Source of the DNA: Polyangiaceae bacterium
GTDB taxonomy: Bacteria; Myxococcota_A; Polyangia; Polyangiales; Polyangiaceae
Length of the DNA: 64,000 nucleotides
Direction: 5' to 3'
Assembly: GCA_019637265.1 (NCBI GenBank)
Contig: JAHBVY010000001.1
Coordinates: 558,001-622,000, forward strand
In this document: piece by piece, positions 45,143 through 64,000 of the stretch
Position numbering within the stretch: position 1 is the first letter of the stretch
Layout: each line of letters begins with the position of its first letter
Translations under genes and position numbers: made by a program
Notes under the pieces: generated by a model
What the model was told of the DNA's origin: nothing
The model's input: the letters and a program-made list of their open reading frames with translations, nothing else
Databases searched by the model: none

Positions 45143-46899
45143 GGCAGCTTCACCCCGCGCTCCTCCGCGGTGCGCTGGGCCGTCTCGTAGCCCGCGATCG
45201 CGTGGCGCGCGACGCCGATCCCAGGGTCCACCGTGAGCACTCGGTTCAGGCGCTCGGCGCGCTCCGGGGTACCGTCAGCTACAATGACCATGCCCGCGTG
45301 CAGCGAGTTGCCGATGCCGACCCCGCCGCCATGGTGAAAGCTCACCCAGGAGGCGCCGGCCGCGGTGTTGAGCGCGAAGTTCAGGAGCGGCCAGTCGGCG
45401 ATGGCGTCGGAGCCGTCCCGCATGCCCTCCGTCTCGCGGTCGGGCGAGGCGACCGAGCCGCAGTCGAGGTGATCGCGGCCGATCACGATGGGGGCCTTCA
45501 GCGCGCCGCTCGCGACGAGCCGATTCATCGCCTCGCCGAAGCGCGCGCGCTCCCCGTAGCCGAGCCAGCAGATGCGGGTGGGCAAGCCCAAGAACGGGAT
45601 CCGCGCGGAGGCGAGCTCCACCCAGCGCCGGAGCCCGACGTTGTCCGGGAACAGCTCGACGAGCTCCTGATCGAGGCGGTGGATGTCCGCCGGGTCGCCG
45701 CTCAGCGCGGCCCAGCGGAAGGGGCCCATGCCTTGGCAGAACAACTCACGGATGTAAGCCGGCACGAAGCCCGGGTACAGGTACTCGCCGTCTTCGCCGC
45801 GCACCGTGACGCCGGCTAGCTCCGCCTGGGCGCGCAGGTTGTTTCCATAATCAAACGCGATGGCGCCAGCCCGCTGCATCGCCAAGATGGCCTCCACGTG
45901 GCGCGCGATGCTGGCGAGCGAACGCCTATGGTACTCCGCGAGGTTGCGGCCGCGCAGCTCATCCAGCTCCGTGAGATCGCCCTCCGGCACGTAGGCGCCG
46001 AGATCGTGCGCCGAGGTTTGGTCCGTGACAATGTCCGGGATCGCCCCGCGCCGCACCATCTCCGGTAGCACGCTGGCGGCGTTGCCCACCAAGCCGATGC
46101 TGAGCGGCTGCTTCGCCGCGCGCGCCGCCTCCGCCCAGGTGAGCGCCTCCGTCAGGCTCTCTGTCATTTTATCGCAGTAGCCCTCGTCCACCTTGCGCTT
46201 CACCCGGTCGGCGCGCACCTCCACGTTGATCACCACGCCCTCGTTCATGGTCACCGCCAGCGGTTGAGCGCCGCTCATGCCGCCGAGGCCCGCCGTCACC
46301 ACCAGCCGCCCCGCGAGGCTCGGCACGCCGTAGTGCTTCTCCGCCAGCGCCAGGAGCGACTGGTAAGTGCCCTGTAAAATCCCCTGAGTGCCGATGTAGA
46401 TCCAGGAGCCGGCCGTCATTTGACCGAACATGGTGAGCCCCTGACGATCGAGCCGGTCGAACTCGCGCTGCGTGGCCCAGCGCGGCACGAGGTTGCTGTT
46501 GGCGATCAGCACCCGCGGCGCGCCGGGGTGCGTCCTGGCGACGTACACCGCGGCGCCCGACTGAATGCACAGCGTCTCGTCGGGCGCGAGTGAGTCGAGC
46601 GCGCTGACTATCTTGTGGTACTCGCGCCAGTTGCGCGCGGCGCGCCCGCTGCCGCCGTAGACGACCAGCGTCTCCCAATCGATGGCGTTCGCTGGGTCGA
46701 GGTTGTTCATCAGCATCCGCTTGGCGGCCTCGGTGTCCCAGGTGCGCGCCGTCTTGGTGCCGCCGCGCGGCGCGTGGATCGGCTCCGTGGGGCGCTCCGC
46801 GAGGTGCAGCGGGCGCCCGTAGCGCTGAAGCTCGGGGCGGAGGTCGTCCGTCGCTCCGTAGCGGGCCTGCTGGCGGGCGTTGATCTCGTCGTCGGTCAT
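45139..46899 (-). CDS. hutU: Urocanate hydratase
   Basis: HutU converts urocanate to imidazolone-propionate using tightly bound NAD+. With ATG 46899 the protein has 586 residues; a longer frame upstream translates the spacer. Family blocks are [77 protein letters not shown] and [36 protein letters not shown] near the C-terminus is also conserved. The order hutU-hutI-sulfatase with overlaps implies one transcript. hutH and hutG are not in this window. Confidence 0.96.
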
Positions 46900-47137
46900 G
46901 AGGGCTCGGGGGTTCGTGGGGCGACGCGGGCGGCTCGGGGGCCGGACCACCAGACTGAAACGGGCGAGGGGCGAACCACCGCACGCGGGCTGGCCGGGTC
47001 GCGGGGGCAGCGAGCCTACCGCACGCCGCGGGGGCTTGATAGTTCGGGGGTTTGCCAGGACCGCGCTGCGCTCGTCGAAAGGGCTTCGGCCATGGAGCGC
47101 TGGAACATCGAGCCCCGGGTACCCTAGGATCCCGCGC
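46900..47137. other. 238-bp divergent promoter region of hutU and TPR gene
   Basis: No gene is credible. It must hold the promoters of hutU (minus) and of the giant TPR gene (plus). CCCTAGGATCCCGCGC lies just ahead of ATG 47138 and resembles the recurring CTAGG element. I see no inverted operator. Confidence 0.4.
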
Positions 47138-50100
47138 ATGGCGGATCCGACGAAGCCGAACGACCCCCCGAGCCCTCCGGAGGAGGAGGCTGACGACATC
47201 ACCAGCTTGCTCGAGCCGGTCTCGTCAGTCGGGCGTCCGCCGCCGCCCCCGCGTCACCCAGGCAAGGCGCCGCCACCCCCCGCGGCGCGCCCGCCGTCGC
47301 CGCCGCGTCGCAACACCCCGGCGAAGGCGCCGGCCGCCGTGACGGCGCCGCGCGGCGCGTCCCCCGCGACGCCGCCGGTCGCGCCGCGTGCCGCTGCGCC
47401 GCTGCGCGGCGCCGCTTCGGGCACCTTGATCGGCACCCCCGCGCCCGGCGGCGCGGCGCCCGCTCAGTCCCCCGCCGCGCCCGTCGCCGCTCCGGTCGTC
47501 GCGGTAGCTCCTGTCGCGACGCCTGCGGCCCCGGGCGCCGCTCCGTCAGCACCCCTGACGCCTGCGCACTCACCCGCCGCGCCTGCCGTGGCGCCTTCGC
47601 CCGCTCCGGCCGCGCCGCCTGTGGCTCCGTCAGCGCCCCTGACGCCCGCGCGCTCGCCGGCGCCCCCCGCTGCGGCGCACTCCCCAGCGCCGCCCGCTGC
47701 CGTCGAGGCAGCACCACAGGCCGCTTGGTCTCGCGAGTTCCACCTGGAGGCGGAGCGCCTCACGCGGCACATCGAGCAAGAGACCGACGCGCGGCGTCAG
47801 GGTCGCCTCCACTACGAGCTCGCGCGCCTGTACGAGCTGCCGCTCGCCGATCTCGACGCGGCGGCCAAACATTTCCGCCTGGCAATCGAGCTCGCGCCCG
47901 AGCTCACCCCGGCGCTCGCCGGGGCGCGGCGGCTGTTCATCGCGCGCGGTGAGGTGAAGGACGCGCTGCCGCTATTCGACGCCGAGGTGCGGATCACCGC
48001 GAGCACGGCGCGCAAGGCGCAGCTCTGGTTCGAGAAGGGCCAGCTCTACGAGGACGTGCTGCAGCAGCGAAAGGAGGCGCGCGAGGCTTATGGGCGCGCC
48101 CTCGAGCTGATGCCGGATGACGTGGGCCTCTTGTCCGCCCTGGTGCGGATCGCCGAGATCGAGGCAGACGCGCCGCGGCTCGCGGCGCTCCAGGAGCAGC
48201 TGGCGGCGACGGTCCAGGAAGATCCGGCGCTGCGCGCCGCGGTGCTCACGGCGCGCGCGCGGCTCACGGACGTGCGGCTCGGGGATCGCGGCGCGAGCAT
48301 CGAGCTCTACAGCGGCGCCTTGGAGGCGGCGCCGCGCTCGGCCGCGGCGCTCGTCGCCTTGAAGCGCCTGCTCCACCGTGAGGGGCGCTGGCGTGAGCTG
48401 GCGCAGACGCTGGCGCGCGAGGCAGAGGGCTCCACGGATCCTCACGTGCGGTCGATGGCGTGGTACCGCGCGGCCGTCATCGAGCGGGACCGCCTGAACG
48501 ACCCGGCGCGTGCCATCTCGGCGCTCGAGCGCGCGAGCGCCGAGGCGCCGGACGACGTGCTGATCTTGGAGCAGCTCGCGCGCGCCTACGCGGAGGCGGG
48601 CAGGCACACGGACCACATCGCGGTGCTCGAGCGGCTGGTGCAGCACACGCCGCGGCCGAGCGCGCGGCTCGCGCTGCTGCACCGCATCGGGCAAATCGCC
48701 GAGGAGCGCGCGGGCGACGTGGAGCAGGCGCAGCGCTGGTACCTGCGCGCGCTCGAGCAGGACCCCACCTACGCCCCGAGCCTCGCGGCGCTGGGCGCCT
48801 CGTACACCCGCCGTAAGGAGTGGGAGCCGCTGATCGCCATGCACCTCTTGGAGGCGGAGCACGCGCGCGAGTCCACGCGGCGCGCTTCGGCGCACGCCCG
48901 GGTGGCGGAGGTGTATGAGCTCTACCGCGCGAGCGACGAGCTGGCGGAGCAGCACTACGGGCGCGCGCTGGCGCTCGATCCGCACCACGCGGGCGCCTTC
49001 AAGGCGCTCTCGCGGCTCCTGCTCGCGCGCGGCAAGCACCAAGCCTTGGTGGAGCTGTACGAGCGCGGCCTCGATCACACGAGCGACGTCGAGACCCGCA
49101 TCGAGTACCTGTTTCGCATCGGGCGGCTCCATGAAGACGAGCTCCACGCGCCGGGGCACGCCGTCGCGACGTATCGACGGATCCTCGAGATTGACGGGCG
49201 GCACCTGGGGGCCATCCACGCCTGGCAGCGGGCCGCGGAGCGCGCGCATCGCCCTCGGGATCTGGCCGAGGCGCTCGAGCTGGAGGCGGAGCGCACGACC
49301 GACGCCGCGCGCGTGGTGCCGCTCTTGCACCGCGCGGGTGAGGTGTACGAGCGGCAGCTGGGCGACGACGACGCGGCGCTCGAGCGTTTCCGCGCGGTGT
49401 TGGTGAAGGACCCGAGCTACGCACCCAACCTGACCAGCCTGGGGCAGCTGTACAGCCGCCTCGGCCGCTGGGAAGATCTGATCCAGATTTACGAGCGCGA
49501 GCTCGCGATCACGCCCAAGGGCCCGCCGCAGGCGCTCATCTTCCACAAGCTCGGCGAGATCGCCGAGGAGCGGGTGGGGGACGAGGCGCGGGCGATGCGC
49601 TTCTATCGTCAGGCTATCGAACAAGATGCCTTCCACAAGCCCGCGCTGCACGCGCTCCAGCGGCGGCTGGCGGCGCGGGGCGACTTCGCGGAGCTCGCCA
49701 AGCTGCTCGAGCTGGAGCTCACCGCGACCACGGAGCCCGCCGAGCGCGCGCGCACCGCGCAGGCCATCGCCGAGGTGTACGAGGACCGCCTGGGGCAGAC
49801 GGAGCGCGCGCTGGCTGCCTATGAGCAGGCCACCCTGGCAGACCCTGGCTTCCGCCCGGCGCTCGACGGCCGGGTGCGCTTGCTCGCGGTGGACGGGCAC
49901 CACAAGCGGCTGGTGGAGGAGCTCGAGCGCCAGGCCAAGGAGACGCCGGATCCGCTGCTCGCCGTGGGGGCGCTGGCCGCTGCGGGCGAGATAGCGCGCG
50001 ACGATCTCCACGACGAGGGCGCGGCGATCGCGCTGTTCGAGCAGGCGCTCGAGCGCGACCCGGCGCACCTGCCTTCGCTGCTCGCGTTGACCTCCCTTTA

Positions 50101-52642
50101 TGAACGCGGTGCGCGCGCCGGCCAATGGGCGCGGCTCGCGGAGCTGTTCGCGATGATGAGCCGCGTGGTGACGCACCCCGGCGCTCGCGTCGCGGCGCTG
50201 CGCGAGCTCGCGCGCCTGCAAGCCGTGAAGCAGAGCGGCGGCGATCCGAAGCACACCCAGGTGTCGATCCTGCACATCGACCCGAAGGACGCCCTGGCCC
50301 TCACGGCGCTGGAGCGGGCGGCGCTGGAGGTGGTGGACGAGGCGCTGCTCACCCAGGTGGACGCGCGCCTGGCGGCGGCGACCAGCGACCCCAAGCTCGC
50401 CGCCGCGCACCGCACGCGCCTCGGTGAGTATCAAGAGCGCGCCGGCGACCCCGCGGCGCTCACGAGCTACCGCGCCGCCCTGGATCGAGATCCGGACAAC
50501 TATCGCGCTGCGCGCGGCTTCGCGCGGCTCGCCGCCGGCTCCGGTGATCATGCGCTCCTACGTGAGGCGGCGCGCTTCCAGCAAGTGGCGGTGCACGACG
50601 CGGAGGCGGCGGCCACGCTGCTCGTCGCTGCCGCCCGAGTGAGCGACGCGGCGGGGGACGCCGCGCGCGCCAGCGAGGATTTGGTGGAGGCGCTGGAGGT
50701 GTACCCCGATCACGCGGGCGCCGCCGAGCTGCTGCGCGAGGTGCGGCTCCGCCAAGGTCAGGTGGACGAGCTTTATAGCGAGCTGGTGCACGCGGCGGGG
50801 CGCTCGCGCTTGGTCGCGAGGCACGCCGCGCTGTGGAGCATGGTGGCTGACTTGTTGGCGGTGCAGAAGCAAGACCTCCCGGCGGCGCTCGCCGCGCTCA
50901 ACCGCGTGATCGGCGATGAGCCGGACAGCGCCGAGACGCTCATCAAGCTGGGCGAGCTGTACGCGCAGGATGGTCAGTGGGCCGAGACGGTGGACCGCCT
51001 GAGCCGCGCGATCGCGCTGTCGCCTGACGATCCGCTGCTCAGCCGCGCGGAGCTGCTGAGCGCGGAGGTGCTGTCGCGGCGCCTGGGCGATGACGACCGC
51101 GCGCTGATCAGCGTGCGCTCGGTCTTGAGCCGGCAGCCCGAGAGCCGCGCGGCGCTCCGCTGCTTGATCGAAATAGAGCAGCGCCGCCGCGACATCGAGG
51201 CGGCTTACGCCAGCGCGCAGCAGCTCGTCGCCGTGTCTGGCACCAAGGAGGAGCAGGCCGAGGCCTATGAGCTGATCGCGGGCCTCGAGCTGTCCCGCGA
51301 GCGGCCGGAGGCCGCGGCCAAGGCGCTCACCGAGGCGGCGAGCATCGTGGGGCTGCGGGTGGCGCCCGAGCTCACGCGGGTGGCCGGCCTGCTCCAAGGC
51401 CCTGCGCGCGAGCAGGCGCTCACCCAGCTGGTGGAGTCCCTGACGCACTACAGCGCGCACGCGCCGCCCGCCGAGCAGCCCGACGTGGCGCTCTACTTGG
51501 CCGCGCTGCTGTCGGATTCGCTGCACCAGGTGGAGCGCGCCTTGGCGGTCTTGAAGCAGGCGGTCAGTCGGGCGCCCGATGACGCTCGCCTCCGCCACGC
51601 GCTGGCGCAGCGGCTCGCCGCGAGCGGTCACTACCCCGACGCGATCGACGAGCTGCGGCGTCTGCTCACGGTGGACGTCGAGGGCGCGGGGATCTGGCGT
51701 GAGCTGTCCGAGGTGCTGGGGCAGGCGGGGCGCGCCCGCGAGCAGCGCCTCGCGCTGGCGCCGCTCGTGGTGCTGGGCGCCGCGACCGATCTCGAGCGCG
51801 CCACCCTCGACGCGAGCCCTCCGCGTCCTGGCAGCGCGACGCCCGGCAGCTTCGACGTGGCGGCTTACCGTGGGGTGGACGCGGCGGCGGGTAACCCGCG
51901 CGCGGTGGAGCTGCTCTGGCTGGTGAGCGAGTCGCTCCCGAAGATCTACCCGCCGGAGCTCGAGCGCTACGGCCTCTCCACGCGGGATCGTCTCAGCCCG
52001 CGCTCGGGGGATCCGCTGCGCCTGCTCGCCGATCGCGTCGCCCGCGTGTTCGGGGTGGAGCAGTTCGATCTCTACGTGCACCGCGCCCACGCCGGCGGCG
52101 TGGAGATCGAGCTCGGCGACCCACCGGCGCTCTTGGTGCCGGCTCACGTGGCCACCCTCGCGGAGAGCCAGCAGGTGTTCATGCTGGCGCGGGTGTTCGC
52201 CAGCATCCGCCGCGGGCTGCACGTGGTGGACAAGCTCGCGCCGCCGCAGCTGGATGAGCTGCTCAAGGCCACCACCCGCGTGGTGATGCCCGGCTACGGC
52301 GGCGCCGATCCCGAGCTGGAGCAGCTCTCGAAGCGCGTGGCGAAGGCGCTCACGCGGCGCGGGCGCAAGGGCCTGGAGGATCTCGGCCCGCTCTACTCTG
52401 GGGAGCCCGTAGCCTCGGTGGAGGAGTGGGTGCGCCGGCTGCGCCTCAGCTCGGCCCGCGCGGCCTTGGTGGTGGCGGACGATTTACCCGGCGTCGTCAC
52501 CTTGCTGCGCCGCACGGAGGGCGACCTAGCGGGCCTCCGTGGCCCCGCGTTGACCCAAGGCATGGCGCTGATCGACGACCTGATGCGCTTCTGGGTCAGT
52601 GAAGCTGCCTTCACCCTGCGCCGTCACCTCGGGATGCCGTAG
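47138..52642 (+). CDS. Giant tetratricopeptide repeat protein
   Basis: The 1834-residue protein from ATG 47138 has a disordered N-terminus (about 1-190) that is Pro/Ala-rich with repeats such as [12 protein letters not shown] and [12 protein letters not shown]. It then has about 1400 residues of TPR-like helix pairs, many with the 34-residue pattern ([80 protein letters not shown]). The last 250 residues are not TPR-like ([35 protein letters not shown]). There is no signal peptide, so it is probably cytoplasmic. Such proteins act as scaffolds. No partner can be named. Confidence 0.85.
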
Positions 52643-54455: not shown

Positions 54456-55376
54456 TCACGGATCGTGGCGGCCGAGGAAATCCTGCAGCAGCCTCCCCAG
54501 CGCCTCCGGTTGGTGCCTGAGCATCAGGTGACCCGCGTCGGGGATGAGCTCCAGGCGGTGCGGCGGCAGGTAGGCGCGGCGGCGCGCCGCCTCCTCCGGG
54601 GCGTGACGGAACACGGACTCCGTGGCCTCCACCAGCAGCACCTCGGCCTGGATCCGACGCCAGAAGCTCGCGGCGCTTTCCACGCGGAATGGAGCTGGCC
54701 CCGTGGTGAGGTGCAGCGGATCGTGGAGGAACTGCACGCCGTCTCCCTCCGGAGCGGGCTCGGTGCCGTGGCTCGCGAGCCAGTGAGCCAGCTCCGGATC
54801 GAGCCGTTCGTCCTGCGCGATGAGCCGCGCCGCCGCCGCGGCGATGTCCGCGTAGCGCTTGGGCCGCGCCTTCGCCTGCCTGTGCCAGGCGCCTACCCAG
54901 GCAGCGATGCGGCTCGGGAGCTCGCTGTCGTCCTCCGGGGGGCCGAGCCCCTCGAGCAACGCCATGCGGAAAATGGTGCTGGGGAAGCTGCCGGCGTAGT
55001 AGCTCGCGATGCTGCCGCCCATCGAGTGCCCCACCAGGCTCACGCGGGCGCGCCCCAGCTCTTGGATCAGCGAGCGCAGGTCCGCGAGGTAGTCAGGGAA
55101 ATGGTAGTACCCGCCGGGGCCGACGCGATCCGAGCGCCCGTGGCCGCGCAGGTCCGGCGCGATCAGGTGCATCCCGGTGAGCGGCCCCGCCTCCACCACC
55201 GGCTGCCAGCTGCGCGCGAAATCGAGGAAGCCGTGCAGCAGCACCACGGTGTGGTCGCTCTCGGCGTCCCACTCGAGCACCTCGTAGGCGAGGCCAGTGC
55301 TCAAGGGCACGCGACGCACCGAAGGCTCCCGGGGGGCGTACTTGTCAGCGTCTCGCTGGCTCCAGCGTGGGCTCAT
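54456..55376 (-). CDS. Alpha/beta hydrolase
   Basis: The 306-residue protein has the alpha/beta-hydrolase fold: oxyanion region VVLLHGFLDFARSW, LIAPDLRGHGRSDR, the nucleophile elbow VSLVGHSMGGSIASYYAG (Ser in GHSMGG) and the C-terminal His in PDAGHLMLRHQP. There is no signal peptide. Nearest families are epoxide-hydrolase, haloperoxidase-like and lipase-like esterases. The substrate cannot be read from the motifs. It is upstream of the oxidase subunit III gene on the same strand, but the 58-bp gap does not prove co-transcription. Confidence 0.85.
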   Translation of the reverse strand: MSPRWSQRDADKYAPREPSVRRVPLSTGLAYEVLEWDAESDHTVVLLHGFLDFARSWQPVVEAGPLTGMHLIAPDLRGHGRSDRVGPGGYYHFPDYLADLRSLIQELGRARVSLVGHSMGGSIASYYAGSFPSTIFRMALLEGLGPPEDDSELPSRIAAWVGAWHRQAKARPKRYADIAAAAARLIAQDERLDPELAHWLASHGTEPAPEGDGVQFLHDPLHLTTGPAPFRVESAASFWRRIQAEVLLVEATESVFRHAPEEAARRRAYLPPHRLELIPDAGHLMLRHQPEALGRLLQDFLGRHDP

Positions 55377-55474
55377 CGTCGGGGCTCATAGCCCAGTTCG
55401 TGCTTCGGCGGTGGAGCGTGAAGCGGCGGAGGGGGGTTGCCAGGGAGCACCCACCTCTGAAAGCATCCGGGTCC

Positions 55475-56503
55475 ATGTCTCGGTCTCGCTCCTTCGCGGC
55501 GCTCGGCGTCTTGGCTTTGGGCGTCAGCCTGGCTCACCCGAGCAGCGCCCAAGAGGTCACCATCACCGACTCGTGCCGGCGGCACTTCAGCGCCGGCGTC
55601 GCCTTCATGCGCGAGCCCGACGGAGCGCGTGACGAGGACGCCTACCGCGAGTTCAAGGCGGCCTACAACGAGTGCCCCTCCTGGAAGATCTTGGGGAACC
55701 TGGGTGAGGCCGCGCGGCGGCTCGAGCGCGACGGGGAGGCGCTGGAGGCGCTCGTGCGCTACCTGGATGAAGGCAAAGACAACGTCGATATCGCCGAGCG
55801 CGAGCAGTACCAGCGCGACATCCCGGTCCTCAAGGCCTCGGTCGCCTGGGTCACCTTGAAGATTGGTCAGCCGGGCGCCATGGTGACAGATATCCGCACG
55901 GATTCTCGTGGCAAGCAGATCCACAACCGGTACCGCGCGCTGGATCCGGAGCTGAAGATCGGCGTTCGCCCCGGCGTCCATCAAATCACCGTCAGCGTGC
56001 AAGGCTATGAGCCCGCGGTGTGGGAGTTCGAGGCCGCGAGCGGCGCCACCCTGGAGCACCGCTTCGAGCTGGTGAAGCCCAAAGGGGGGGGGAGCCCGGA
56101 TGGGCCCTCGGTACCTGGCGTGGATCCAGGCACCGGGGATGCCTCGCCGGGGGGCGAGGGGGAGCGGCCGATCCCAGCGACCGTGTTCATCAGCGGTGGG
56201 GTCGCGGCGCTGGGGTTCATCGGCTTCGCGGTGCTGGGGTCGATGGCGAGCGGCAAGCGCTCGGATTTCGACGCCAAGAACGACGGCTCGGACCCGGCGG
56301 GCGCCAAGTCGCTCAAGGACTCGGGTGAGTCACTCAACCTGTTCGCGGACGTGTCGCTCGGGGTCGGGGTGATCGCCGGCGCGCTCACGGCGGTGTTCTA
56401 CCTGACCCGCCCCGAGGTCTCGCCAGCGCAAGATCGGGGCCTCAAGCTGACGCCGCAGGTGGGCCCGGACGTCGCGGGTTTGTCGCTCTTCAAGCGCTTT
56501 TAG
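55475..56503 (+). CDS. Exported PEGA-like protein with C-terminal membrane helices
   Basis: From ATG 55475 the 342-residue protein has a cleavable signal peptide (AALGVLALGVSLAHPSSA). Residues about 30-130 are TPR-like helices (DAYREFKAAYNECPSWKILG, EALEALVRYLDEG). Residues 130-215 resemble a PEGA or carboxypeptidase-regulatory fold (IRTDSRGKQIHNRYRALDPE, GVHQITVSVQGYEPAVWEFE). Two hydrophobic helices follow near 235 and 300 (FISGGVAALGFIGFAVLGSM, LFADVSLGVGVIAGALTAVF). This layout is common in myxobacterial proteins of unknown role. A longer frame starting at 55367 would hide the signal peptide and is rejected. Confidence 0.82.
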   Translation: MSRSRSFAALGVLALGVSLAHPSSAQEVTITDSCRRHFSAGVAFMREPDGARDEDAYREFKAAYNECPSWKILGNLGEAARRLERDGEALEALVRYLDEGKDNVDIAEREQYQRDIPVLKASVAWVTLKIGQPGAMVTDIRTDSRGKQIHNRYRALDPELKIGVRPGVHQITVSVQGYEPAVWEFEAASGATLEHRFELVKPKGGGSPDGPSVPGVDPGTGDASPGGEGERPIPATVFISGGVAALGFIGFAVLGSMASGKRSDFDAKNDGSDPAGAKSLKDSGESLNLFADVSLGVGVIAGALTAVFYLTRPEVSPAQDRGLKLTPQVGPDVAGLSLFKRF

Positions 56504-56556: not shown

Positions 56557-58035
56557 ATGAAGCCTGTCACCCTGCACGTGCTCTCACTGACCGCCGCGTT
56601 CGCGGCGCTGGCTTGCGGCGAGAGCCCTGACCCCACCTTGAGGCCGACCACGGGCGGGACGGGCGGCGGCGGAGCTGCTGGTGTGGCGGGCGTGGGCGCG
56701 AGCGGTGGGACGGGGGGTGGCGGCACCGGCGGGGGCGTGGGCGCGACGGGTGGGGTGGCGGGCGCCGCGGGCAGCGGCGGGTCGGGCGGCAGCGGCGCGG
56801 CGCCTGGCTTCCCTACCTACCCGGCGGTGCAGTACCCCACGGAGAACCCGCGCACGCTCGAGAAGGAGCTGCTCGGCAAGGTGCTGTTCTGGGAGGAGCA
56901 GCTGAGCAGCGACGACACGGTCGCCTGCGGTACCTGTCACCAGGGTCGGGCGGGTGGCGCCGATCCACGCAGCTTCCAAGACGGCGCGATTCACCCAGGG
57001 CCTGACGGGGTGCTGCACACGGCTGACGATCGCCGCGGGGGGCAGGGGATCCGGCGCTGCGTCCAGGCGGGGCCCGTCATCACCTACCAGAACGACCCAG
57101 TGTTTGGCAGCGCGCCGCAGGTCACGCGGCGTAAGCCCGCGAGCTACCTCGACGCGATGTTCTCCCGCGACCTGTTCTGGGATGGGCGCGCGCGGGGTCA
57201 GTTCGTCGACCCGGACAATGGTCAGGTGGCCATCGCATCGGGCGGCGCGCTCGAGAGCCAGGTGCTGGGCCCGCTGCTCGCGCGCGAGGAAATGGCCTGC
57301 GATAACCGCACCCTGAGCGCCGTGCACACGAAGCTCGCGGCCTCGCAGCCGCTCGCGCTGGCGCGCGACATCCCCGCGTCGATGAAGGCGTTCATCGCCA
57401 GCTACCCGACCTACCCGGAGATGTTCCAGGCGGCGTTCGGCACCCCGGAGATCAACACGCGGCGCATCGCCTTCGCCATCGCCAGCCACGAGCGGACGCT
57501 CACCTCGAACCGCACCCCTTGGGATCGTTGGAACGCGGGCGAGGCGAACGCGCTCACCCCGCGCCAGGTGCGCGGCTTCCAGCTGTTCATGGTGGAGGGG
57601 CGCTGCGCCCTGTGTCACCAGCCGCCGCTGTTCACGGACTCTGGCTTCCCTGGGATCGCGCTGGAGGGCGACTTCCACCAGCTCGGCTTCGTCGCGGTGG
57701 ACCCCGCCTTCGACCGCGGGCGTGAGGAGGTGACGGGTGAGGCGCACCAGCGCGGCGCGGTGAAGACGCCGAGCCTGCGCAACGTGGGGCTGCGGGAGGC
57801 CGGCGGGCTACTCCACACCGGCGCTGGGCATGGCGCCGACTTGATGGCGGTGATGCTCGCCTACCAAGCGCCGCCGAACCTGACCGACAACGTCGATCCG
57901 CTGGTCACGCCGCTCGCCCTCACCACCGAGGAGATCGAGGCGATCATCGACTTCATGCGGGCCGGGCTGACCGATCCGCGGGCCCAGGCGGAGTTGCCCC
58001 CCTTCGATCGCCCGAAGCTCGGCAGCGAGCCCTGA
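56557..58035 (+). CDS. Di-haem cytochrome c peroxidase (MauG/CCP family) lipoprotein
   Basis: The 492-residue protein from ATG 56557 has a lipobox (AFAALAC, Cys 21) and a long Gly/Thr/Ala linker (about 30-85). The peroxidase domain has two CxxCH haem sites: VACGTCHQGRAGGADPRSFQ near 126-145 and GRCALCHQPPLFTDSGF near 348-364. It follows the usual LGKVLFWEEQLSSDD entry and carries PSLRNVGLREAGGLLHTGAG near the C-terminus. Such enzymes reduce H2O2 with electrons from cytochromes, or oxidise protein targets. As a lipoprotein it would face the periplasm or the surface. The two haem-bearing lipoproteins downstream are possible partners. Confidence 0.93.
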   Translation: MKPVTLHVLSLTAAFAALACGESPDPTLRPTTGGTGGGGAAGVAGVGASGGTGGGGTGGGVGATGGVAGAAGSGGSGGSGAAPGFPTYPAVQYPTENPRTLEKELLGKVLFWEEQLSSDDTVACGTCHQGRAGGADPRSFQDGAIHPGPDGVLHTADDRRGGQGIRRCVQAGPVITYQNDPVFGSAPQVTRRKPASYLDAMFSRDLFWDGRARGQFVDPDNGQVAIASGGALESQVLGPLLAREEMACDNRTLSAVHTKLAASQPLALARDIPASMKAFIASYPTYPEMFQAAFGTPEINTRRIAFAIASHERTLTSNRTPWDRWNAGEANALTPRQVRGFQLFMVEGRCALCHQPPLFTDSGFPGIALEGDFHQLGFVAVDPAFDRGREEVTGEAHQRGAVKTPSLRNVGLREAGGLLHTGAGHGADLMAVMLAYQAPPNLTDNVDPLVTPLALTTEEIEAIIDFMRAGLTDPRAQAELPPFDRPKLGSEP

Positions 58036-58106
58036 TGGAAAAGAGTTCCCGCGGAGCTCTTGGGCCTTGCTAGGCTACCGGCTGATTTGCTGGGCGCGGA
58101 GGACGG

Positions 58107-60155
58107 ATGAGGCGACGGATTGGGCTCGCAGGGTGCCTGGCCATGGCGCTGATGGGCTGTGGTGGTGGGGACGATTTGCCCGCGTCGGACGATGGCGGCG
58201 CCGAGGTCGATCGGGAGCCGCCGGTGTTCGCCGGGGTGCGCGCCGCGACCACCCTCTCGGAGGAGCAGGTGGACTTGAGCTGGGACGCCGCGGAGGACGA
58301 CGTCTCGGACGCCGCGCGGCTCGTGTACCGCGTCTACGTCGCCGCGGCGGGGGAGGCGTTCAGCTTCGATGCGCCCTTCATCAGCACCGCCTCGGGCGCC
58401 ACTCAGGTGCGCGTGGGCGGCCTCCAGCCCGGGCAGGATCATCGGTTCATCGTCAGGGCAGTCGACGAAGCTGGCAATGAGGACGCGAACCGGGTCGAGG
58501 CGTCGAGCGCCACGCCCGACGACACGCCGCCGCGCTTCGCGGGCGTCACCCGCGTCACGGCGGCGTCATCGACCTCGATCGGCGTGGAGTGGAACGCGGC
58601 GGTCGACGCCGGCACCCCTCAGGGCCAGCTCGTCTACCACGCGTTCCTCTCGGTGGCCGGGGCGCCCTTCGACTTCGGCTCGCCCAGCGCGGTGTCCTCA
58701 CCCGGGCAGTCCTCGCTGGTGATGAACGACCTCTTGCCGCTCACGGATTACTCGGTGGTGGTGCGCGCGGTCGATCGTCACGGCAACAGCGACACGAACG
58801 TGCTCTCGCGCGGCGCGCGCACGCCGGAGGGCGTGCCGCCCCTCTTCGGTGGCGCCACCCAGGCCATCGCCGATGGTCAGAGCATCACCCTTTATTGGGC
58901 TCCGGCGAGTGACAACGTCACTGGCAGCGGCAGCCTGCTCTACGACATCTTCGAGGCCACCCAAGACCGCGGTCAGGATTTCTCGCGCCCGAGCTACACC
59001 AGCCAACCAGGCCAAATCAGCTTCGTGGTGAGCGGGCTCGCGCCGCACACCAAGTTCTATTACGTGGTGCGGGCGCGCGACGCGGCGGGCAACCGCGACA
59101 GCAACACCGCTCAGGTGAACGCGACCACCACGGGGGACGAGGACACCACCGCTCCCACCTTCGCCGGCGTGGAGGCGGTGGAGGGCACCAGCCCGAGCAC
59201 CCTCACGGTGCGCTTCAGCGCGGGGAGTGACGACACCACGCCCGTCCACCAGCTCCGCTACGACGTCTACGTCGCGGAGACGTCGGGCGCGCAAGACTTC
59301 GGCGCGCCCACCCTCATCACGCCGCCGGGCGTCACCCACGCGGTGATCACCGGCCTGCCCCCGAGCGCCACGCGGCACGTCGTGGTGCGCGCGCGTGACC
59401 TCGCCGATCAGGTGAGCAGCAACGCGCAAGAGCGGAGCGGCACCACGCTGCCCAACACGACAGGCAATCTGACGGCCCCCACCTGGGCAGCGGGCCCCTC
59501 CATCAGCGTGAACGTGAGCCTGGGCGCGCTCGACGTGAGCTGGACGGCGGCGAACGACGACAACCACGCGGCGAGCGACATCCGCTACCACCTGTGCGCC
59601 GAGCAAGACGCCAGCCGCTGCCTCGGGGCGAGCTTCAACCGGCACATCCGCGCCACCACCGAGTTCGGCATGACGAACGCGCGGCTCACGAACCTGCTCT
59701 CGCGCGCCGTGTATCACGTGTTCGTCCGCGCGGAAGATCGCTCCGGTAACCTGGAGACGGGCAACCACTCGGCGAGCGCCGCCACCCCCGTCTCCTACCG
59801 CTACGACATCCTGCCGCTGTGGCGCCACGCTTGCGGCGGGTGCCACAGCTTCTCGCACGCCACCACGGTGCTGGTGCCGGGCGGCTTCGTCGACCCCAAC
59901 GTGACGCCGCCGTTCTGCGGCGCGGAGGGTTGCGGGCTGCCGCTGGTGTGGCCGGGGCAGCCGGAGAACAGCATGATCTACCGGCGTATCAACCCGCGCG
60001 GGCTGACCACCGCGCCGTTCTCCCCCGCCGCTCCGAATGACTACGTCGGCGTTCAAGAGCCGCGGGATGGCGCAGGCACGCTGAGTAACCCGCTCACGGG
60101 CGCTCAAGATGGCCTGATTCGTGACTGGATTGAACAGGGGGCGTTCGCGAACTGA
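58107..60155 (+). CDS. Lipoprotein with five fibronectin type III domains and terminal cytochrome c motif
   Basis: The 682-residue protein begins MRRRIGLAGCLAMALMGC with a lipobox Cys at 18. Five FN3-like domains of about 105 residues follow, each starting PPxFAGV-like and ending near VVRAxDxAGN (about 38-130, 130-235, 235-340, 340-450, 450-560). The last 110 residues contain a single CxxCH (WRHACGGCHSFSHAT) in a YDILPLWRHACGGCH cytochrome-like module, ending IRDWIEQGAFAN. This is the planctomycete-type c-haem fold by pattern. The haem would sit at the end of a rigid arm on the cell surface. The candidate promoter TTGCTAGGCTACC (58067-58079) lies upstream. Confidence 0.88.
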   Translation: MRRRIGLAGCLAMALMGCGGGDDLPASDDGGAEVDREPPVFAGVRAATTLSEEQVDLSWDAAEDDVSDAARLVYRVYVAAAGEAFSFDAPFISTASGATQVRVGGLQPGQDHRFIVRAVDEAGNEDANRVEASSATPDDTPPRFAGVTRVTAASSTSIGVEWNAAVDAGTPQGQLVYHAFLSVAGAPFDFGSPSAVSSPGQSSLVMNDLLPLTDYSVVVRAVDRHGNSDTNVLSRGARTPEGVPPLFGGATQAIADGQSITLYWAPASDNVTGSGSLLYDIFEATQDRGQDFSRPSYTSQPGQISFVVSGLAPHTKFYYVVRARDAAGNRDSNTAQVNATTTGDEDTTAPTFAGVEAVEGTSPSTLTVRFSAGSDDTTPVHQLRYDVYVAETSGAQDFGAPTLITPPGVTHAVITGLPPSATRHVVVRARDLADQVSSNAQERSGTTLPNTTGNLTAPTWAAGPSISVNVSLGALDVSWTAANDDNHAASDIRYHLCAEQDASRCLGASFNRHIRATTEFGMTNARLTNLLSRAVYHVFVRAEDRSGNLETGNHSASAATPVSYRYDILPLWRHACGGCHSFSHATTVLVPGGFVDPNVTPPFCGAEGCGLPLVWPGQPENSMIYRRINPRGLTTAPFSPAAPNDYVGVQEPRDGAGTLSNPLTGAQDGLIRDWIEQGAFAN

Positions 60156-60156
60156 G

Positions 60157-60195
60157 CAGGGCAGCTGACGGAGCCAAGGACGACGGCTCCGCGCG
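60157..60195 (+). terminator. Hairpin in spacer between the two FN3 genes
   Basis: CGGAGCC (60171-60177) pairs with GGCTCCG (60185-60191) around an 8-nt loop. No T-run follows, so termination is uncertain. GGCAGCTGACGGAG nearby belongs to the GACAGC mini-repeat family. Confidence 0.4.
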
Positions 60196-60220
60196 GGGCG
60201 TGTGGGCGACGGATGAGCTT

Positions 60221-62014
60221 ATGTTGACACCGAAGACGAGATCGCGAGTTTCCACGTGGGTTTGGGGGTTGGGCACGCTGGCCTGCGCCTTAGTCCTCCC
60301 GGGCTGCGGCGACGGCGACGAGATGACGTGTGGGCCGGGCACGCGCAAGAACGGCTCGCAGTGCGTGCCGCACGGAGACGTGCCCATCCCCGACGCGGGC
60401 GCGGAGGGCAACCAGCCGCCCACCTTCGCGGGCATCACCAGCGTGGCGCCAGCTAGTGAGTCCGCCTTACAAGTCACCTGGAGCCCCGCCACCGACGATC
60501 GGACCGCGGAGAGCGCGCTCCGCTACCACGTGTACGTCGCCACCACGAGCGGTGGCCAGAACTACGGGGCGGCGACGGTGACCACGCCGCCTGGCGCGCA
60601 GAGCGCCTTGATAGGTGGCCTGACGAATGGCCAGACGTACTTCATCGTGGTGCGCGCGGAGGACGCCGATGGCGCCGTCGACGACAACGAGGCGGAGCAG
60701 AGCGGCGCGCCCGCTCGCGACACCACGCCGCCGAGCTTCGCGGGGGCTACCAGCGCGGAGCCGGTGGGAGCGACCGAGGTGCGCGTGCGCTGGTCCCCCG
60801 GCACCGACGATCAGACCCCGGCGCCCGGGCTCAGCTACACGGTGCGCTGGTCGACGGAGGCGGGCGGCGCGCCCACCGGCGCGGTCGGCGCGGTGAGCGT
60901 GCCCGGCGCGACCAGCGTGGTGGTGCGGGGCCTGCCGCGCGCCCAGAGCAGCTACTACTTCAACGTGCGCGCGAGCGACGCGGCAGGGAACTCGGAGAGC
61001 AACGTGGTGGAGGTGAGTGGCGCCACGGGCAACGACACCACCGCGCCGGTGTTCGGCGGCTGCACCGGCGTCGGCGCGCCGGGCGCCACCAAGGCGGTCG
61101 TCAGCTGGGACCCAGCGCTCGACGACGTGGACGGCCCGGACGTCATCACCTACCACGTGTACGCCTTCACCGAGGCGCCCGGGCCGGAGACGCCGTTCGG
61201 CAGCCCCGTGAGCAGCTTCGTGGGCGGCACTCAGGGTGAGGTGAGCGGCCTCGCCAACGACACCACTTACTACCTGGTGTGCCGCGCCGCGGACACCGCG
61301 GGCAACGAGGATGGCAACATGGCCTTCCGGGTCACCCGCACCTTGGTCGATGGTGAGCCGCCGACCTTCGGCGGCATCACGGCGATGACGCTGGGGGCGA
61401 CCACGGTGGAGCTCAGCTGGGACGCCGGCTCCGACGATCAAACACCGGTGAGCGCCCTGGTGTACCGCGTCTATCAGGCCAGCAGCGGTAACCCGCTCGA
61501 TAGCCCGGCGGTGGCGCAGTCACCGCCCGGCGCCACCGTGATCTCGCTGAGCGGGCTCAGCTCGTCCACGCCTTACCGCTGGGTGGTGAGGGCAGTTGAC
61601 GAAGCGGGCAACGAGAGCATCAACACCGACGAGCACTCGGGCACCACGAAGGTGAGCTTCCGCAGCGACATCGAGGCGGGGATCTTCGACGTCGCCTGCG
61701 CGAGCAGCGGCTGCCACGGGACGGACAACCCGCAGCAGGGCCTCACCTTGGCGTCCGGCTTCGCCTACTTCTCGCTCGTGGGGGTCAACGCGATCCAGAC
61801 GCCCGGCGGCAGCACGCTGAAGCGCGTGGACAACGCGTCCAGCGACCCGCGGGACAGCTACCTCTACCGGAAGATCGACCCCATCTTGGTGGGGGGGACG
61901 CCGGATCCGAACGACATCGTCGGAGCGCGCATGCCGTTCGGTGGTGCGCCGCTCACCAGTGAGCAGCTGGCGAAGGTGGCGCTATGGATCCAACAAGGCG
62001 CGGAGAACAACTAG
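60221..62014 (+). CDS. Lipoprotein with four fibronectin type III domains and CX4CH cytochrome motif
   Basis: From ATG 60221 the 597-residue protein has a signal (TWVWGLGTLACALVLPGC) with lipobox Cys. A GTG at 60200 would add seven residues. Four FN3-like domains follow, sharing the PPTFAGI start and VVRAxDxxGN end seen in the previous gene. The C-terminal module has FDVACASSGCHGTDNPQQG, where the haem motif is CX4CH in place of CXXCH, followed by MPFGGAPLTSEQLAKVALWI. CX4CH attachment is known in some cytochromes, but might also mean no haem here. The gene is 65 bp after its paralog, so tandem duplication is likely. Confidence 0.85.
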   Translation: MLTPKTRSRVSTWVWGLGTLACALVLPGCGDGDEMTCGPGTRKNGSQCVPHGDVPIPDAGAEGNQPPTFAGITSVAPASESALQVTWSPATDDRTAESALRYHVYVATTSGGQNYGAATVTTPPGAQSALIGGLTNGQTYFIVVRAEDADGAVDDNEAEQSGAPARDTTPPSFAGATSAEPVGATEVRVRWSPGTDDQTPAPGLSYTVRWSTEAGGAPTGAVGAVSVPGATSVVVRGLPRAQSSYYFNVRASDAAGNSESNVVEVSGATGNDTTAPVFGGCTGVGAPGATKAVVSWDPALDDVDGPDVITYHVYAFTEAPGPETPFGSPVSSFVGGTQGEVSGLANDTTYYLVCRAADTAGNEDGNMAFRVTRTLVDGEPPTFGGITAMTLGATTVELSWDAGSDDQTPVSALVYRVYQASSGNPLDSPAVAQSPPGATVISLSGLSSSTPYRWVVRAVDEAGNESINTDEHSGTTKVSFRSDIEAGIFDVACASSGCHGTDNPQQGLTLASGFAYFSLVGVNAIQTPGGSTLKRVDNASSDPRDSYLYRKIDPILVGGTPDPNDIVGARMPFGGAPLTSEQLAKVALWIQQGAENN

Positions 62015-62029: not shown

Positions 62030-63496
62030 ATGACGGAGCCCACGCACCCTACCTGTGAGCCGTCGCCTGGAGCCGCGGCCAAGGCCCCTGATCGCTGGGC
62101 GGGTTTGAAACCCGCCCCTACGTCGGCGAAGCGCGGCGGGTCGCTCGCGGCGCTCTTCGGCGTGGCGGCGCTCGCGGTGGCTTGCAGCGTGACCAACACC
62201 TTCGATGAGGTCCGCCAATCGAGCGCGGGCGGTTCGGGTGCCAGCGGGGGGGCGGGCGCCGCGGGTGGCGTAGCGGGCAGCGGCGGGACCCTCGGCGGCA
62301 CCACGGCGGCGGGCACGGGGGGGACGGCTGGCGTGGATCCAGCTCCAGCTGGTCTCATCATGGTCGCTGGAGTGGGGGACGGCGAAGCGGGGCGGGAGTC
62401 GGTCATCGCCGCGCTCAGCCCGCACTCTGGGCGTGAGTACGCGCGGCGCTCGTTCGGAGCGGGTCGGTCCGTCAGGGTGGCTTACGACGCGGCGACCGAC
62501 GTGTGGTACGTGTTCGCGCAGGTGGGGACCGTGACGGAGCCGTTCGAGCTCCACACGCTGCGCTTCGATCGCGTAGCGCGTCGCTTCACGGAGCTAGCCA
62601 CCCTCACGGTGCCGGCGCCCAAGGGCGTCATCGCGGTCCTCAACCAACGACTCTACTACCAGTCAGTCGTTCAAGAGGTGAGCGCGCCGCCCACGGAGGG
62701 CTTCACCCTGGTGAGGGTGGTCACGCCCGAAGCGCCCGAGCTGGTGCAGCCGCCGCAGGACACGCCGCTGCTCAGCGGCACCGTGTTCGCCATGGTGAGC
62801 CGCCCCTCGGCGGCTCCTGGTGGCGTCGTCAACGTGTTCATCAAGGACGCGAGCTGCCCGGCCGGAGTGGGGGGCCCTGCCTGTGACGTACGCGTTCGGC
62901 GTGCGTCCATCAGGGAAGCTGCGACCACCGCGCAGTTCGCGGTGGAGTCTCAGGTGCTCGGGCGTGTGTTGCAGTCCGGCGGGAGCGCAGCGGCGACGCG
63001 GGCAGGGGATGATGACGTCATCGTCTTGCCCGATCCGAGCTGGGTCGATGGCCTGCCCGACGTCTGGGCTGGTCAGGCGCAGCGCTTCCATTCTACCACC
63101 TTCGCGACCCTCGCCACGTATCCGTTCGAGGTGAACGGTCCGGCGATCCGCGACGCTGCTTGGGATGCTTGCTCGGGGGTGGTGTTCGCAACGGAGCTCG
63201 CGAAAGACGCCGCCATCTTCGCGATCCCGACGGCGAGCGGTGGCACCACCTTCCGTCTGGGCGTTTCGACGCCGCCCGTCGCCGCGGTGCACTTCGAGCC
63301 CATCACGCGCAGCGTGCTCCAACCCAAAGACGACCCAACGAACTACAGCATCCGAGCCTTCGCGCTGGGCGGCACCTCGCTCGAGCCCGTCCTCACGGAG
63401 CGGCTCCCGGGCTCGGCGCTCCCGTGGGAGCCTCCGCCCGATCTGAGGCCCATCCAGGTGGCGATCGAGGAGCCCCGGAGCCCCGCGTGTCCGTAA
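62030..63496 (+). CDS. Gly-linker lipoprotein, paralog 1, unknown function
   Basis: The frame opens with ATG 62030 (488 residues), but the lipobox (GVAALAVACSVTNTFDEV, Cys about 52) is too deep for this start. A palindromic element (62097-62117) is translated between them as GLKPAP. TTG 62104, inside that element, would give a 27-residue signal peptide. I cannot decide between them. After the Cys come NTFDEV, a Gly/Ala/Ser linker (GGSGASGGAGAAGGVAG) and about 370 residues of beta-rich sequence with WD/propeller-like spacing (DAATDVWYVFAQVGT, LAKDAAIFAIPTASGG). No family is recognised. It is followed by a related lipoprotein. Confidence 0.72.
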   Translation: MTEPTHPTCEPSPGAAAKAPDRWAGLKPAPTSAKRGGSLAALFGVAALAVACSVTNTFDEVRQSSAGGSGASGGAGAAGGVAGSGGTLGGTTAAGTGGTAGVDPAPAGLIMVAGVGDGEAGRESVIAALSPHSGREYARRSFGAGRSVRVAYDAATDVWYVFAQVGTVTEPFELHTLRFDRVARRFTELATLTVPAPKGVIAVLNQRLYYQSVVQEVSAPPTEGFTLVRVVTPEAPELVQPPQDTPLLSGTVFAMVSRPSAAPGGVVNVFIKDASCPAGVGGPACDVRVRRASIREAATTAQFAVESQVLGRVLQSGGSAAATRAGDDDVIVLPDPSWVDGLPDVWAGQAQRFHSTTFATLATYPFEVNGPAIRDAAWDACSGVVFATELAKDAAIFAIPTASGGTTFRLGVSTPPVAAVHFEPITRSVLQPKDDPTNYSIRAFALGGTSLEPVLTERLPGSALPWEPPPDLRPIQVAIEEPRSPACP

Positions 63497-63616: not shown

Positions 63617-64000
63617 ATGAAGTACGCTTCCCTGTTCATCTCAGCCGGCCTGCTCGTGGGTTGCTCGTTCGTCAACGCCTTCGACGACGTGACGGAGGAG
63701 CAGGGCCAGGGGGGCGCGGCGGCCTCCGGGGGGACGAGCGCCGGCGTGGGTGGGGTGGCTGGCTCGGGTGGGGTGGGCGCGGGCGGCAGCGGCGCGGGTG
63801 GCTCGGGAGCCGGCGGCTCAGGGGCTGGTGGTAGCGGCGCGGGTGGCTCGGGAGCCGGCGGCAGCGGCGCGGGCGGCAGTGGTGCTGGCGGCTCGGGAGC
63901 GGGCGGCAGCGGCGCGGGCGGTTCGGGGGCCTCCGGCGGCACGGCGGGGACCGGCGGTGGATCCGCGCTGGGGCAGGCGTGCCAAGAGAACGAAGACTGC
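63617..64000 (+). CDS. Gly-linker lipoprotein, paralog 2 (3' end cut by window edge)
   Basis: ATG 63617 gives a clean signal peptide MKYASLFISAGLLVGC with lipobox Cys at 16, then SFVNAFDDV, matching CSVTNTFDEV of the previous gene. A strongly repetitive linker of about ten GAGGS units follows, then SALGQACQENEDC at the edge, which looks like the start of a small Cys-rich domain. The rest is outside the window. The shared C-S-x-x-N-x-F-D-x-V motif shows that the two genes are paralogs arranged in tandem. Confidence 0.82.
   Translation, partial: MKYASLFISAGLLVGCSFVNAFDDVTEEQGQGGAAASGGTSAGVGGVAGSGGVGAGGSGAGGSGAGGSGAGGSGAGGSGAGGSGAGGSGAGGSGAGGSGAGGSGASGGTAGTGGGSALGQACQENEDC

Follow-up and report, generated by a model that had tools for sequence, protein, structure and literature searches.

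The window, a 64,000-nt stretch from a Polyangiaceae bacterium (positions 558001–622000 of contig C1 of the 5.7 Mb genome G000), encodes near its end, on the + strand and in this order, a TPR-type protein, a di-haem enzyme, two FN3-cytochrome lipoproteins that we call fnA and fnB, a conserved lipoprotein (P4) and another lipoprotein, followed past the window by a kinase. The genes and the residues used in the argument below are:

55367–56503, + strand: P5, a TPR-type protein with a predicted C-terminal membrane segment (from the translation, tblastn of neighbourhoods and a weak TPR match in an orthologue)
56557–58035, + strand: di-haem lipoprotein of the CCP_MauG superfamily, with a Gly-rich linker after the lipid Cys
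56926–56940, + strand: haem motif 1 of the enzyme, CGTCH, residues 124–128, predicted peroxidatic haem
57178–57291, + strand: stretch of the enzyme with Trp208, Gln235 and Glu245, and an insertion between the Trp and the Gln (from alignment)
57604–57618, + strand: haem motif 2 of the enzyme, CALCH, residues 350–354, predicted electron-transfer haem
57862–57864, + strand: Tyr436 of the enzyme, aligned with the axial Tyr of BthA and MauG
58107–60155, + strand: fnA, a lipoprotein in which five FN3 domains precede a C-terminal cytochrome c domain
59832–59846, + strand: haem motif of fnA, CGGCH
60057–60059, + strand: Glu651 of fnA (in EPRDG), at the distal Met position
60221–62014, + strand: fnB, a lipoprotein in which four FN3 domains precede a C-terminal cytochrome c domain; conserved core gene
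61697–61717, + strand: haem motif of fnB, CASSGCH (CX4CH)
61931–61933, + strand: Met571 of fnB (in MPFGG), candidate distal ligand
62030–63496, + strand: P4, a conserved lipoprotein directly 3′ of fnB, outside known families
63617–64000, + strand: start of a further lipoprotein of 361 aa, which extends beyond the window

The initial annotation had described positions 56557–62014 as three consecutive genes for a di-haem enzyme and two FN3 lipoproteins, and this is the layout we find, with lipoboxes AALAC (enzyme), LMGC (fnA) and LPGC (fnB) and intergenic gaps of 71 bases between enzyme and fnA and 65 bases between fnA and fnB. The kinase, of the Hanks Ser/Thr type, lies ~1.1 kb past the window end, after the 361-aa lipoprotein. 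A scan for promoters and terminators gave a result no better than shuffles, and a search for a plasmid match found none. Upstream of the cluster, at 46880–52642, the window also encodes a very long TPR-like protein (an open reading frame of 1920 aa).

fnA (682 aa) and fnB (597 aa, ATG start at 60221) are paralogues. The Pfam fn3 family (PF00041) matches them at 2e-25 and 2e-23 and passes on four stretches of fnA and three of fnB; a local FN3 profile finds five and four domains in their orthologues, the numbers first proposed, and the last FN3 domain of each is confirmed by AlphaFold2 and Foldseek. Lipoprotein signals are present in the window proteins and in the orthologues inspected, and because Asp is absent at +2 in these, we infer lipid anchoring in the outer membrane. 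As one FN3 domain measures ~3.5 nm, the arms would reach about 14–18 nm. An 1841-residue FN3-cytochrome of genome G121 (L041:6621–12146) strings together about 16 FN3 domains and bears a single terminal CGACH. In three Kofleriaceae/Myxococcota loci (L113:9668–13186, L116:9533–13171 and L120:9215–13330), FN3 alternates with cytochrome domains in one chain, with five CXXCH per protein about 213 residues apart and two further cytochrome genes adjoining.

The terminal c-haem motifs first noted in fnA and fnB stand up to profile comparison. A profile of the tails matches the solved cytochromes FoxE (1.4e-11), hydrazine synthase alpha (1.2e-10, spanning residues 641–766) and PccH (4e-4); in the alpha subunit of hydrazine synthase, haem alphaII sits in a type I cytochrome c fold (PMC12607021). 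By profile, the fnA and fnB tails share this fold with PSCyt1-type domains and with all three solved proteins, which differ in bearing the domain without FN3 arms; FoxE is moreover di-haem and hydrazine synthase a multisubunit enzyme. In Pfam, PSCyt1 is matched by 4 of 19 related tails (best 5e-7), and the fnB tail alone has no significant match, cytochrome c appearing only sub-threshold. In AlphaFold2 models of the last FN3 domain plus tail (mean pLDDT 83 and 86), an N-terminal helix precedes the haem motif, the MP loop is followed by a C-terminal helix, and the haem loops are modelled with low confidence; Foldseek, run on the FN3-cytochrome models, returned only FN3-type structures among the matches listed and so lent no independent support to the cytochrome fold. 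Of the features of a class I-type (PSCyt1-like) cytochrome c domain, namely CXnCH preceded by an N-terminal helix, an MP loop, a C-terminal helix and likeness to solved cytochromes, fnB shows every one and fnA all but the Met. On this profile evidence both tails are genuine cytochrome c domains; since they match solved cytochromes and the gene order recurs elsewhere, the layout is more than chance. Genes for cytochrome c assembly are present in the genome.

The collected loci contain 72 distinct tail domains, one of which duplicates the window's fnA in truncated form; 31 carry CX2CH, 30 CX4CH, 4 CX3CH, 2 CX5CH and 5 no motif. The view that CX4CH is rare is thereby overturned for this domain family, with 30 of about 72 related domains carrying it. 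CX4CH carries haem in MmcA, by mass shifts (PMC11024163), and in c3 (PMC10454114). The motif in common use, CXXCH, overlooks roughly every second haem motif of this tail-domain family.

The enzyme (ATG at 56557, stop at 58035, 492 aa) has two CXXCH motifs and belongs to the CCP_MauG superfamily (PF03150; E=1e-30, 107.7 bits versus a gathering cut-off of 25.6). Its lipid Cys is separated from the catalytic domain by about 60 residues of low-complexity, mostly Gly-rich sequence, and a similar linker is found in all three orthologues. In alignment the enzyme retains the peroxide-site residues Trp208, Gln235 and Glu245, which we take to be equivalents of the conserved Trp, Gln and Glu of bacterial cytochrome c peroxidases (bCCPs) and MauG. 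The original label of di-haem peroxidase therefore holds at the level of the superfamily but not in the sense of an ordinary cytochrome c peroxidase: where the canonical enzymes have an axial Met at the second (high-potential) haem, this one has Tyr436. That residue is the Tyr of a pattern, L-x-x-V-M/V-x-x-Y, shown by the enzyme's relatives, and it aligns with the axial Tyr of MbnH (6e1c), BthA (6nx0) and MauG; the column holds Met in a separate CCP of the same genome (contig C12) and in BthA entry 6v59, and Tyr in 6nx0, which is the same protein as 6v59. Met433, three residues before Tyr436, was at first favoured as the ligand from a phmmer alignment with the Met of 9qdt, and was dropped because relatives have Val, Ile or Leu there and Tyr or Met at position 436. 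Axial Tyr ligands are known in MauG (Tyr294) and BthA (Tyr463) (PMC6405878), and the second haem of the enzyme should likewise be ligated by Tyr436, as in MauG, BthA and MbnH.

Named families do not claim the enzyme. Its best NCBIfam matches are MbnH (TIGR04039, 115.1 bits versus a cut-off of 362.85) and then MauG (TIGR03791, 106.3 bits versus 443.85), both far under the cut-off, and its whole-protein profile is closest to a bCCP (1iqc, 8e-37), ahead of MbnH (6e1c, 6e-32) and MauG (about 1e-13). Given the Tyr column, the bCCP-like profile and the scores below the MauG and MbnH cut-offs, the enzyme is by sequence a superfamily member of the Tyr type, outside every named subgroup tested. It resembles BthA, MauG and MbnH in its two CXXCH haems, its conserved Trp, Gln and Glu and the Tyr at the second-haem axial column, but differs from all three in being lipid-anchored on a Gly-rich tether; unlike MauG and MbnH, it has FN3-cytochromes as partner genes rather than methylamine dehydrogenase or MbnP, neither of which was matched among the five proteins scanned. 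Canonical bCCPs (1iqc of Nitrosomonas, 2c1u of Paracoccus) are its best overall profile match, and fnB, a monohaem cytochrome of the His/Met type encoded close by, is a possible donor, but the enzyme is without their axial Met. A second di-haem peroxidase-superfamily gene of the same genome (L187:4504–6911, contig C17) adjoins a two-motif protein with the same cytochrome domain.

The tail-domain loop that leads into the last helix has MP in 64 of the 72 domains, EP in four and HP in two, with two not covered. The four EP domains are exactly those of the four enzyme-linked fnA proteins (4/4), and the distal Met is present in 64 of the 68 remaining domains collected. fnA is thus not of the His/Met subtype, Glu651 replacing the Met, and as the alignment of the four enzyme-linked fnA contains no conserved Met or His as a substitute, the sixth ligand of its haem may be the Glu, another group, water or nothing. 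In a tree of tail domains the four Glu-bearing fnA form one clade (support 98/95), whose nearest neighbour, with weak support (93/53), is the giant fnA of G121, in which the Met is kept. The Met-to-Glu change is therefore a single evolutionary event, so its association with the enzyme is suggestive and not statistical proof. Among the loci sampled there is no Glu-bearing fnA without the enzyme; the enzyme without fnA does occur elsewhere. This pairing of Met loss with the enzyme seems to point to a dedicated redox partnership, apparently an undescribed one. Another possible ligand change, Met to His, is seen in genome G095, where a lipoprotein with two related cytochrome domains (L045:4445–6490) has HP for MP at the distal position and adjoins a giant FN3-cytochrome.

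A search for the same trio elsewhere, suggested by the initial annotation, found it in the same order in three other genomes, G164 (same genus), G172 and G118, which rules out a single-genome oddity; the named loci related to the window are all from Polyangiaceae. The four trio genomes span three genera at about 40–66% identity, and in G164 the contig end falls inside fnB. fnB itself was found in 13 of 108 Polyangiaceae genomes. P4 directly follows it in 11 of 12 assessable loci (it was not seen after fnB in G146), called by sequence similarity in most and by position plus a shared lipoprotein N terminus in G118, G161 and G184. Ser/Thr kinase genes lie near fnB in 9 of 13 loci, some of them only 38–40% identical and possibly not orthologous, and P5 accompanies the fnB core in 7 of 13, the window included. 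These neighbour counts are lower bounds. Most relatives are fragmented metagenome assemblies, and genes in the relatives were called by a simple GC-bias script. By gene content, fnB and P4 form a core that usually has a Ser/Thr kinase and a TPR protein encoded nearby, and four genomes add the enzyme and fnA to it. P4 as a conserved fourth gene, the kinase and TPR neighbours and the replacement of Met by Glu in fnA all go beyond the initial annotation. A proven beta-propeller fold for P4 is unsupported, the only matches being Kelch at E about 0.7 and PD40 at E 0.13.

What lies beside the core varies. The five-FN3 fnA and the enzyme are upstream of fnB in the four trio genomes; in G121 the 1841-residue FN3-cytochrome replaces fnA, and the enzyme gives way to a pentahaem protein that G184 also encodes (51% identical); G192 has the core beside a two-motif cytochrome, and some fnB loci have no other haem gene nearby. 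The pentahaem proteins (L041:15345–17240 and L077:2727–4568) sit in an fnB–P4–kinase block from which the peroxidase is absent, and have a sub-threshold MtrC/MtrF-like match. The enzyme subfamily occurs in 15 of the 317 genomes of the class searched, eleven of them without the trio; in the nine of these eleven that were inspected, on contigs that are in some cases short, no FN3-cytochrome lies beside the enzyme. A molybdate-type ABC transporter (SBP_bac_11, a permease and, in G164, a TOBE-containing ATPase) is directly upstream of the enzyme in G164 (L081:2519–5209) and G172 (L075:2657–4157), and not in the window genome or G118.

We put at roughly 40% the probability that the locus specifies a lipid-anchored redox partnership in the cell envelope that uses peroxide. 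The sequence shows a di-haem enzyme on a flexible Gly-rich tether encoded together with two cytochromes c on FN3 arms, all with lipoprotein signals. H2O2 would react at haem 1 of the enzyme, which would be five-coordinate, and the oxidising equivalents would pass to its Tyr/His second haem and on to the cytochrome tips. fnB, with His/Met ligation, would be an ordinary one-electron partner drawn from the older fnB–P4–kinase module, and fnA a dedicated low-potential or open-coordination partner, its Met having given way to Glu on the enzyme-linked branch. The FN3 arms would set the reach, letting the anchored proteins meet, and the net outcome would be reduction of peroxide or the peroxide-driven oxidation of an envelope target. 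This reading draws on the conserved order of the trio, the real cytochrome tails, the assembly genes, the retained Trp, Gln and Glu and the 4/4 Met-to-Glu change; if the fnB core exchanges electrons, it would be expected beside other haem proteins elsewhere, as in G121, G184 and G192. Counting against it are the origin of the Met-to-Glu change in one event, the enzymes without FN3-cytochromes and the fnB loci without another haem gene, as well as the fit of Tyr ligation to protein-modifying enzymes and the example of TfcP, in which a ligand swap accompanies a structural, non-respiratory role.

The two main rivals are modification of a partner and a structural haem. Possibly, though we doubt it, the enzyme is a MauG/MbnH-like modifier that would use H2O2 to oxidise residues of fnA, fnB or P4, maturing a partner rather than detoxifying. 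MauG and MbnH are encoded beside their substrates, their families are the top NCBIfam matches (115 bits for MbnH, 106 bits for MauG) and Tyr436 occupies the axial column of MbnH, BthA and MauG; but the scores lie far under the cut-offs (363 and 444 bits), the whole-protein profile places bCCPs ahead of both, and fnA has no obvious specific invariant Trp outside the FN3 cores. BthA, furthermore, is Tyr-ligated and still a peroxidase (PMC6405878). Tyr ligation is thus compatible with peroxidase activity, as in BthA, and with protein modification, as in MauG and MbnH. It seems unlikely that the tips are redox-inert, with haem stabilising a surface adhesin or scaffold and the enzyme linkage reflecting haem or ligand handling, or being incidental. 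Adhesins typically carry FN3 tandems, and the kinase and TPR neighbours are not respiratory. TfcP of Myxococcus xanthus is by description a comparable case, a myxobacterial monohaem cytochrome c with its distal Met replaced by Cys and a structural, non-respiratory haem (PMC8833165), but it is soluble and periplasmic, works with PilY1 and has neither FN3 arms nor an enzyme partner. Against inert tips, the Met is kept in fnB and most relatives (64 domains), as expected of a redox-active haem, and the tips co-occur with other haem proteins.

We consider it improbable that the locus is a piece of a chain for extracellular electron transfer, whether the electrons go to minerals, to soluble acceptors or to neighbouring cells. 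The best solved match of the tails is indeed the iron oxidoreductase FoxE, but that likeness is one of domain fold, common to hydrazine synthase and PccH; and the pentahaem protein of G121 and G184, with its sub-threshold MtrC/MtrF-like match, lies in the same block, but a single haem on each arm of several FN3 domains cannot make a haem-to-haem wire, and no porin–cytochrome conduit gene was recognised among the neighbours scanned. Chance adjacency of unrelated lipoprotein genes, which the solitary enzyme relatives in nine of the eleven genomes might suggest, is very improbable, given that four genomes from three genera keep the order and that a change in fnA sequence tracks it. A parts parallel with hydrazine synthase, which has cytochrome, CCP/MauG-like and propeller subunits (PMC12607021), we leave as a resemblance, because the fold of P4 is unproven and the domains are widespread.

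Beyond the general redox partnership, we advance tentatively a more specific form of it: a new two-part redox system of a tethered, Tyr-ligated di-haem enzyme and an FN3-borne Glu cytochrome, added onto a kinase-linked lipoprotein module in the envelope of Polyangiaceae. If so, the fnA tip would be either a catalytic haem or a substrate matured by the enzyme. Each part has a known fold; their combination is absent from the literature searched, in which queries on FN3-cytochromes in myxobacteria returned nothing relevant, and the initial statement that no system of this layout has been described agrees with the searches made. Single-haem tips borne on FN3 arms recur across Polyangia, and here an axial-ligand residue has changed on the branch that is genetically linked to a di-haem enzyme, a natural case that allows a joint test of ligand, potential and partnership.
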